This document shows positions 10,175 through 57,005 of a stretch of DNA of 59,210 nt, piece after piece; position 1 is the first letter of the stretch, and the number at the start of each line of letters is the position of its first letter. The notes beneath the pieces were generated by a model, which searched no databases, was not told the origin of the DNA, and saw only the letters and a program-made list of their open reading frames with translations. Source of the DNA: Actinomycetes bacterium (GTDB lineage: Bacteria > Actinomycetota > Actinomycetes > Nanopelagicales > Nanopelagicaceae); assembly GCA_014190015.1 (NCBI GenBank), contig BJFT01000005.1, positions 1-59,210 of the forward strand, in the 5' to 3' direction. The position numbers were made by a program, and so were the translations under genes.

Positions 10175-10211
10175 CGTAGATGTAACACAAGTGCCTATTA
10201 GGCCGAAAAAT

Positions 10212-10249
10212 GTGACGTGTTTGAAACCTTGATTGCCATTGCCTGTAAC
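10212..10249 (+). promoter_or_regulatory. GlnR-like operator upstream of amt-glnK
   Basis: GTGAC (10212-10216), six bases, GAAAC (10223-10227) matches the published actinobacterial GlnR half-site pair gTnAC-n6-GaAAC. A further GTAAC at 10245-10249 lies in phase, 33 bases (three 11-base steps) from the first. The cluster ends 82 bases before the ammonium transporter start. GlnR activates nitrogen-uptake genes under nitrogen limitation. The match is seen; that this organism has GlnR is inferred. Confidence 0.6.
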
Positions 10250-10331
10250 TCACCTGGGGCATTTTTACCCTCATCTCAAAGGCGAGAATCCCACATGTTA
10301 TTTGCAACCACATTATTGAAAGCAGTTACTT

Positions 10332-11971
<1,640 letters not shown>

Positions 11972-55550: not shown

Positions 55551-56804
55551 TTACTTACGCGAGTTTGATAGTGCAGTTAAGACACGGTGACCAACAACAG
55601 CAACCAAAGTTGCGTTAATGATTCCGTTGAATGTGTAATCACCTTGAGTCCAAGAGATATCTGCAATACCGATGATGAGAGCAGAACCTGCGATCAAGAG
55701 ATTAGTTGAGTTAGAGAAATCAACTCGACTATCAATCCAGATGCGCGCGCCCAAAACGCCAATCATTCCGAATAGAGCAACTCCAACGCCACCAAGTGCG
55801 CCTACTGGTGTTGCACTAAGTACTGCACCAAATTTTGGTGACAGAGATAGAAGGATTGCGCCAACGCCTGCGATCCAATAAGCAGCAGTTGAGTAAACGC
55901 GTGTAGCAGCCATTACGCCAATGTTTTCAGCGTATGTCGTTGTACCTGATCCACCACCTGCACCTGCAAGTGTTGTTGCAAGTCCATCTGCCATCAGGGC
56001 ATTACCCATTTGGTCATCAAGATTTTTGCCAGTCATAGCAGAAACTGATTTAACGTGTCCAACATTTTCTGCAATCAAAACTAAAACAACTGGCAAGAAG
56101 AGAACGATTGCTTTTGAATCAAATGTTGGTGTTGTAAATGATGGCAAAGCAACCCATGATGCTGAACTAATTGCATCAGTCTTCACATCGCCCATTGCCA
56201 GAGCAACTACGTAGCCAATGATTAGACCAACAAAGATGCTTATGCGATTAAGGAAACCGCGTGATACTGCTGAGACAACACCAATAGATGCCAGAGTGAT
56301 AATCGCAACCATTGGACCAGCTACGAAGTTGTTTTTAGCCGCACCTGCAAGGTTTAGTCCGATGACCATAACAATTGTTCCTGTTACAACAGGAGGCAAG
56401 AGCCAGTTAATCCAACCAATTCCTGCTTGGCGAACAATCAAACCGACAGCAGCAAGGATCAAACCTGTAACAACAACGCCACCCAAAGCTGCGCTCATTC
56501 CGCCGCCTGTTTGTGCGGCAGCAATTGGCGCTAAGAATGCAAAGGATGAACCGAGGTAGCTAGGAACTTTGTTCTGAGTGATTATGAGGAATAGAAGAGT
56601 TCCGATACCGGAGAAGAGCAGTGTTGTAGTTGGCGGAAAGCCAGTGATGATTGGGACGAGGAAAGTTGCACCAAACATTGCAGCAATGTGCTGCACACCA
56701 ACGCCGATTGTGCGTGGCCATGTGAGGCGCTCATCTGTGGATACGACATCTCCGTGAGCAATGTTCTTTCCATTGCCGTGAAGTTTCCATGAGAGCAGGG
56801 ACAT
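55551..56804 (-). CDS. Uracil/xanthine permease (NCS2 family)
   Basis: This 417-residue nucleobase:proton symporter has about 14 hydrophobic segments. VGVQHIAAMFGATFLVP near the N-terminus, the central LIAENVGHVKSVSAMTGKNL and GSGTTTYAENIGVMAATRVYS are NCS2 signatures; the Glu pair lies in LIAEN and YAENIG. The family includes uracil (UraA) and xanthine/urate carriers and I cannot separate them here, although uracil is favoured by the AENIG form. The frame is open back to 56942, but the ATG at 56804 has GGAAGGA just upstream and gives the family start. Upstream lies a structured leader. Confidence 0.88.
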   Translation of the reverse strand: MSLLSWKLHGNGKNIAHGDVVSTDERLTWPRTIGVGVQHIAAMFGATFLVPIITGFPPTTTLLFSGIGTLLFLIITQNKVPSYLGSSFAFLAPIAAAQTGGGMSAALGGVVVTGLILAAVGLIVRQAGIGWINWLLPPVVTGTIVMVIGLNLAGAAKNNFVAGPMVAIITLASIGVVSAVSRGFLNRISIFVGLIIGYVVALAMGDVKTDAISSASWVALPSFTTPTFDSKAIVLFLPVVLVLIAENVGHVKSVSAMTGKNLDDQMGNALMADGLATTLAGAGGGSGTTTYAENIGVMAATRVYSTAAYWIAGVGAILLSLSPKFGAVLSATPVGALGGVGVALFGMIGVLGARIWIDSRVDFSNSTNLLIAGSALIIGIADISWTQGDYTFNGIINATLVAVVGHRVLTALSNSRK

Positions 56805-56810
56805 AGTGTT

Positions 56811-56909
56811 CCTTCCGTATACGGGCGGGGTAAACGCCCTGAAGAGGCGGGGAAGGCCGTCAACAAGGGTAAGTCTGAGCCAGCACTTACCTCGGCGTAC
56901 GCCACGCCG
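56811..56909 (-). promoter_or_regulatory. Structured 5' leader of the uracil/xanthine permease mRNA
   Basis: Reading the minus strand, three stems line up: a 6-base-pair stem (56893-56909), a perfect 7-base-pair stem with a 10-base loop (56868-56891) and a 5-base-pair G/C stem (56823-56839). The ribosome-binding GGAAGG (56811-56816) is an exact complement of CCTTCC at 56851-56856, so the site can be hidden in a longer stem enclosing the last hairpin. The leader is visibly richer in G and C than the genes around it. This resembles a riboswitch or protein-controlled leader; I do not recognise a known class. Confidence 0.5.
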
Positions 56910-56961
56910 AATATCTCCGGGGCTAGCGAGGCGAGTTGGCATTGCGGGGCAGTATCGGGTT

Positions 56962-57005
56962 AACTATCGCATCGTTATATCGAATCGATATATAAACCGA
57001 TAGTT
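56962..57005. promoter_or_regulatory. Nested palindromic operator between the permease and padR-ino1
   Basis: An inner palindrome, TATATCGAATCGATATA (56976-56992, eight-base arms), lies inside an outer inverted repeat AACTATCG...CGATAGTT (56962-56969 and 56998-57005) with almost the same centre. It sits 31 bases before the padR ATG and in the divergent control region of the permease. PadR proteins bind such AT-rich palindromes, so self-regulation of padR-ino1 is likely. Confidence 0.65.

Follow-up and report, generated by a model that had tools for sequence, protein, structure and literature searches.

At the enterobacterial pyrC and pyrD genes, nucleotide pools choose the transcription start and a 5′-terminal hairpin masks the Shine-Dalgarno (SD) sequence. 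The locus described here resembles these E. coli and Salmonella systems in having a pyrimidine-related gene with a short 5′UTR in which the initial bases pair with the SD, whereas it differs from them in its upstream phased operator, in the phylum to which it belongs and in offering no evidence of nucleotide-dependent start choice. Translational riboswitches share with it an SD that is masked by an upstream complement; however, our locus has no Rfam match, no conserved aptamer-like core in the predicted transcript, and a UTR of only ∼54 nt. The M. smegmatis xanthine/uracil permease MSMEG_2570, at which GlnR binds and whose expression rises 51-fold when nitrogen is limiting (PMC3662644), is an orthologous kind of permease with an OmpR-type 5+6+5 box upstream. 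In contrast, the second half-site is degenerate at our locus and GlnR binding is putative, and MSMEG_2570 is not known to carry a 5′ SD mask.

The window, i.e. the whole analyzed stretch of 59,210 nucleotides, belongs to a 1.25-Mb assembly that is 92% complete. The permease encoded in it scores above the cut-off of the NCBIfam NCS2 superfamily model, followed by the RutG and uracil permease models, which it matches below their cut-offs; orthologs were found in 124 of 201 genomes of the family (Ca. Nanopelagicaceae). We collected leaders from 91 relatives within the family, 68 of them non-redundant. In our assessment, the region upstream of the permease probably combines a promoter and operator with a 5′-terminal SD-masking hairpin, giving two layers of control. 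It is most likely a permease control region conserved in freshwater actinobacteria, and it gives no convincing indication of a new riboswitch. As far as our literature search shows, this known kind of control region is new in the Nanopelagicaceae lineage. Its features are the following.

55551–56804, minus strand: NCS2 uracil/xanthine-type permease gene, RutG/UraA-like, with its ATG at 56802–56804
56805–56858, minus strand: predicted 5′UTR of ∼54 nt, from a start at ∼56858 placed by the −10 box and published spacing
56811–56816, minus strand: SD sequence GGAAGG
56823–56839, minus strand: inner hairpin GGGCG-TTTACCC-CGCCC in the fold of the predicted UTR
56851–56856, minus strand: anti-SD CCTTCC, from base 3 of the predicted transcript onward, an exact complement of the SD
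56866–56871, minus strand: −10 box TACCCT (TANNNT), at the same place in the family leaders
56888–56899, minus strand: putative operator dyad TAC-GCCGAG-GTA, recognized by its N6 spacing and its distances to the −10 box
56900–56907, minus strand: conserved GCGTGGCG element adjoining the dyad, marked by clusters of GCGTG, with GTGGCGTAC almost invariant in the genus
56976–56992, no strand assigned: TATATCGAATCGATATA, an almost perfect palindrome in the padR–permease intergenic region, strongly conserved across the genus

A TANNNT hexamer lies directly upstream of the UTR structure in all 91 leaders. This count is biased, since a list of such hexamers served to anchor the −10 box, and the redundant relative L053 reads TGCCCT; yet the two leaders missed by the list have TAGTAT and TAATCT in the corresponding position. 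TACCCT itself occurs in 41 of the 68 non-redundant leaders, the others having TACCAT, TACCGT, TACGAT, TATTCT, TAGCCT, TAGGGT, TATGGT and similar variants. Several permeases of outgroup genera (Cellulosimicrobium, Cellulomonas, Actinotalea and Arthrobacter) have TACCCT, TAATGT, TAAAGT or TATTGT about as far from the ATG. Mapped −10 boxes in M. tuberculosis are TANNNT, with purine starts in 85% of cases and no −35 consensus (PMC3898074), and the preferred start in E. coli is ∼7 bp downstream of the −10 box (PMC5730371). From the position of the −10 box and this published spacing (PMC5730371, PMC3898074), we infer that permease transcription starts at ∼56858; a TANNNT box followed ∼7 nt on by a purine at the predicted start is the arrangement of an actinobacterial housekeeping-type promoter. 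No −35 box is recognizable in the permease promoter, and a scan with the sigma-70 consensus returned no site, which says little because the promoter has no −35 box. In the relative L071 a strong 16-bp terminator ends ∼45 nt before the −10 box, and the permease therefore needs its own promoter there. A terminator was also seen by eye in L061; it was unreported by the terminator scan, so only L071 is cited.

The sequence-only reading had proposed a 150-nt leader with three successive stem-loops that acts as a translational riboswitch or protein-bound RNA. With the −10 box at 56866–56871 the start falls at ∼56858, so the leader is probably ∼54 nt long and most of the 150 nt is probably not leader; stem-loops 1 and 2 coincide with the putative operator and the −10 box. 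The stem-loops could not be upheld as a special fold either, the 176-nt region folding no better than shuffled sequences (z = +0.16). Stem 2 overlaps the −10 box and pairs the dyad with it, being 67% paired. Stem 1 (56891–56908) is conserved, with covariation at two pairs, within the genus only, and no conserved covarying structure across relatives was found in the transcript. The excess of GC is real (61% at 56800–56949 against about 45–50% nearby), although ‘far more’ GC-rich was an overstatement.

The conserved upstream letters are arranged by helical phase. TAC-N6-GTA occurs in 37 of the 68 leaders and other spacings in 0–4; about half of the leaders lack the exact TAC-N6-GTA. The dyad is separated from the −10 box by 6 nt in 9 leaders (mostly g16), by 15–17 nt in 18 leaders (g1, g11, g17 and g2) and by 25–26 nt in 8 leaders (g4), and two more copies lie 50 nt from the −10 box. 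These distances move by one helical turn (10 bp), as expected of a DNA site. The flanking GCGTG element is bimodal, being found 33–37 and 42–47 nt before the −10 box. The conserved upstream letters keep their sequence while hairpin potential differs between genera, and in g4 the letters of stem 1 are present without the stem 1 hairpin. Judged by these patterns, the upstream letters behave as DNA, as a promoter and a putative operator. A regulon search with GTGNCGTAC-N5-RGTA found a single copy in the window's genome, and the non-permease matches examined in other genomes all lie inside coding sequence. The numbers of TetR and GntR genes in genomes with and without the permease were uninformative.

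For the leader to be a true translational riboswitch or a protein-bound RNA, transcription would have to start upstream of 56907, and the whole RNA of 110–150 nt would sense a nucleobase or nucleotide, or bind a protein, thereby freeing the SD. This would fit the anti-SD/SD pairing, the function of the permease, which suits nucleobase sensing, and the stem 1 pairs that changed on both sides within the genus, with 95.8% of cells paired as in an RNA hairpin. However, the helical phasing of the conserved letters, the loss of stem 1 in g4 despite kept letters, the lack of excess folding, the terminator just upstream in L071 and the Rfam result all count against it. The Rfam 15 covariance models gave no match at gathering score in the window or in eight related loci, in agreement with the earlier statement that the leader matches no recognized RNA class, and a permissive scan returned chance hits only (E > 5). 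Downstream of the predicted start we saw no conserved core resembling an aptamer, and a literature search found no paper on Nanopelagicales and riboswitches. We consider a riboswitch, a protein-bound leader or an undescribed 150-nt RNA element at this locus very unlikely.

The control block moves with the permease through at least three neighborhoods (padR/ino1, argG and infC-rpmI-rplT). In the window the divergent genes upstream are padR (57037, plus strand) and ino1 (57566, plus strand). The palindrome TATATCGAATCGATATA is retained beside padR in G014, a genome without a permease match; it probably serves as operator for padR-ino1, the divergent unit, and lies outside the permease block. PadR was rejected as the permease regulator, because the palindrome stays in G014 and the permease block persists without padR. 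In a different lineage, a more distant NCS2 permease of genus g6 (L118; G105, C44) seems, judged by eye, to adjoin a PucR-type regulator gene (sequence ...NINVAETSRILHFHYNTLRYRI...). In two loci of genus g4 (L055 and L056) the string GGCGATTAAAAGAAAGAGCGCAATCGCC is repeated, with inverted copies, on both sides of the permease, possibly as a repeat or terminator-like element.

The exact complementarity of CCTTCC at 56851–56856 to the SD GGAAGG at 56811–56816 was confirmed on the minus strand, and the predicted start at ∼56858 lies upstream of 56850, the limit set beforehand for the leader, and keeps the anti-SD in the transcript. In the fold of the predicted UTR the SD is paired (mean unpaired probability 0.04), although for this single sequence the masking does not exceed what chance would give (dinucleotide shuffles 0.23, p = 0.16). 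The inner hairpin has little covariation among the five closest relatives. Across the family, SD openness equals that of shuffles (0.41 versus 0.40), and total UTR folding is stronger than in shuffles at p ≤ 0.05 in 30% of leaders.

The family-wide SD openness fits another explanation, in which SD masking is incidental, control is exerted at the promoter only, and the CTTCC tract reflects an initial-transcribed-sequence preference or an mRNA-stabilizing 5′ stem. In line with it, the 5′ stem retained in g11, g17, g2, g10 and part of g1 does not cover the SD. On the other hand, L100, L104, L110 and L115 have extended pairing over the SD, and the 5′ end and the SD co-vary both between and within genera. 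The latter was tested by comparing the mean duplex energy of 5′ ends paired with their own SDs and with those of other species: own duplexes reach −9.97 kcal/mol versus −8.85 ± 0.28 kcal/mol for cross-species ones (p = 0.0005), and inside genera the difference has p = 0.0035, with permutations that do not remove all ancestry effects. Inside genera the difference is no longer significant when the 5′ segment is 30 nt long (p = 0.18). Among control segments, the two immediately upstream of the −10 box show no fit to the SD (p = 0.36 and 0.54) and one far upstream is marginal (p = 0.027). Moreover, TTCC occurs near the predicted start in 36 of the 68 leaders versus 3–4 of 68 in equal windows elsewhere, and a GGAA-type SD is present in 35 of these 36 leaders versus 14 of the 32 others. 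The pairing test and these counts suggest that in part of the family selection acts on the masking stem, which begins at the predicted start, and we regard purely incidental masking as unlikely. Own-SD hiding, as proposed from the sequence, thus stands as a co-variation of the 5′ end with the SD across species, located at the predicted mRNA 5′ end, but the masking is lost in some clades: a 5′-terminal segment that pairs and co-varies with the SD is found, though not in every genus.

Since removal of the first 5–7 nt of the predicted transcript opens the SD (0.04 to 0.35), a start switch like that at enterobacterial pyrC is conceivable. Nucleotide pools would then pick between starts a few bases apart, only the longer transcript having the whole anti-SD, which indeed lies close to the predicted 5′ end. 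We give this explanation little credence: no conserved pair of alternative initiating bases is present at the start, SD masking is not retained in all genera, and the shift needed exceeds that known at pyrC. The pyrC/pyrD precedent is mentioned in PMC5730371. It is also quite improbable, in more general terms, that the anti-SD hairpin acts as a switch responding to nucleotides or nucleobases, either by start-site choice or as a minimal riboswitch of ∼50 nt; if true, such a hairpin would give the acI lineage, whose genomes are reduced, a link between internal pools and the uptake of nucleobases.

A more specific form of the DNA layer would make the operator a GlnR box and the permease a nitrogen-limitation gene. 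Analogy with MSMEG_2570 (PMC3662644) and the resemblance of the operator to the 5+6+5 geometry of GlnR boxes (PMC10704036) speak for it, as do the canonical GlnR boxes before amtB in the same genome and the GlnR-like proteins recognized by eye, from a degenerate receiver, in G040, G103, G117 and G109. When the box was tested as gTnAC-n6-GnAAC (AC-n9-AC), the first half-site of the permease operator had AC in 35 of 35 cases; the second, however, is degenerate, with A at position 15 in 15/35 and C at position 16 in 15/35, and is AC-like in under half. In addition, the dyad is more palindromic than a direct repeat, and GlnR is not among the three OmpR-type regulators in the window's genome (92% complete). 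MtrA also binds GlnR boxes (PMC10704036), which weakens the case for GlnR and makes MtrA another candidate regulator, to be followed as a lead. Because of the degenerate second half-site GlnR is likewise a lead only, and its control of the permease is a tentative possibility.

Before amtB (ammonium transporter match at 10365–11597) a GlnR-type box, GTGAC-GTGTTT-GAAAC, lies at about 10180–10228 (plus strand), with GTAAC-N6-GTAACA in relatives. The leader of this gene also contains CATCTCAAAGGCGAG at 10272–10286 (plus strand), kept before amtB in most relatives examined, where CUC-AAAGGC-GAG may form a short hairpin. Of 61 genomes of the family, 25 contain the pattern CAYCTCAANGNCGAG, mostly as a single copy. 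The CATCTCAAAGGCGAG sequence has no Rfam match and may serve amtB as an element of RNA or of DNA.

In the two-layer control that we favor, the first layer would act on DNA, at a promoter with the −10 box TACCCT and no recognizable −35 box, where a dimeric regulator, perhaps a GlnR-like nitrogen regulator of the OmpR type, would bind GCGTGGCG/TAC-N6-GTA just upstream, at a putative operator that shifts by whole helical turns between genera. The second layer would act on RNA: with transcription starting near 56858, the predicted mRNA opens with the anti-SD CCUUCC, which would pair with the SD GGAAGG around the small inner hairpin and hold down translation. The sequence features, their phasing and the 5′-end/SD co-variation are direct observations in the leaders. 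They correct a plausible riboswitch call, in that the letters with the most striking conservation behave as DNA, as a promoter and a putative operator. Should GlnR be the regulator, these bacteria would link their nucleobase uptake to nitrogen limitation, as mycobacteria do. More broadly, this control region illustrates a way in which a freshwater lineage that is abundant and genome-reduced may regulate its uptake of nucleobases.
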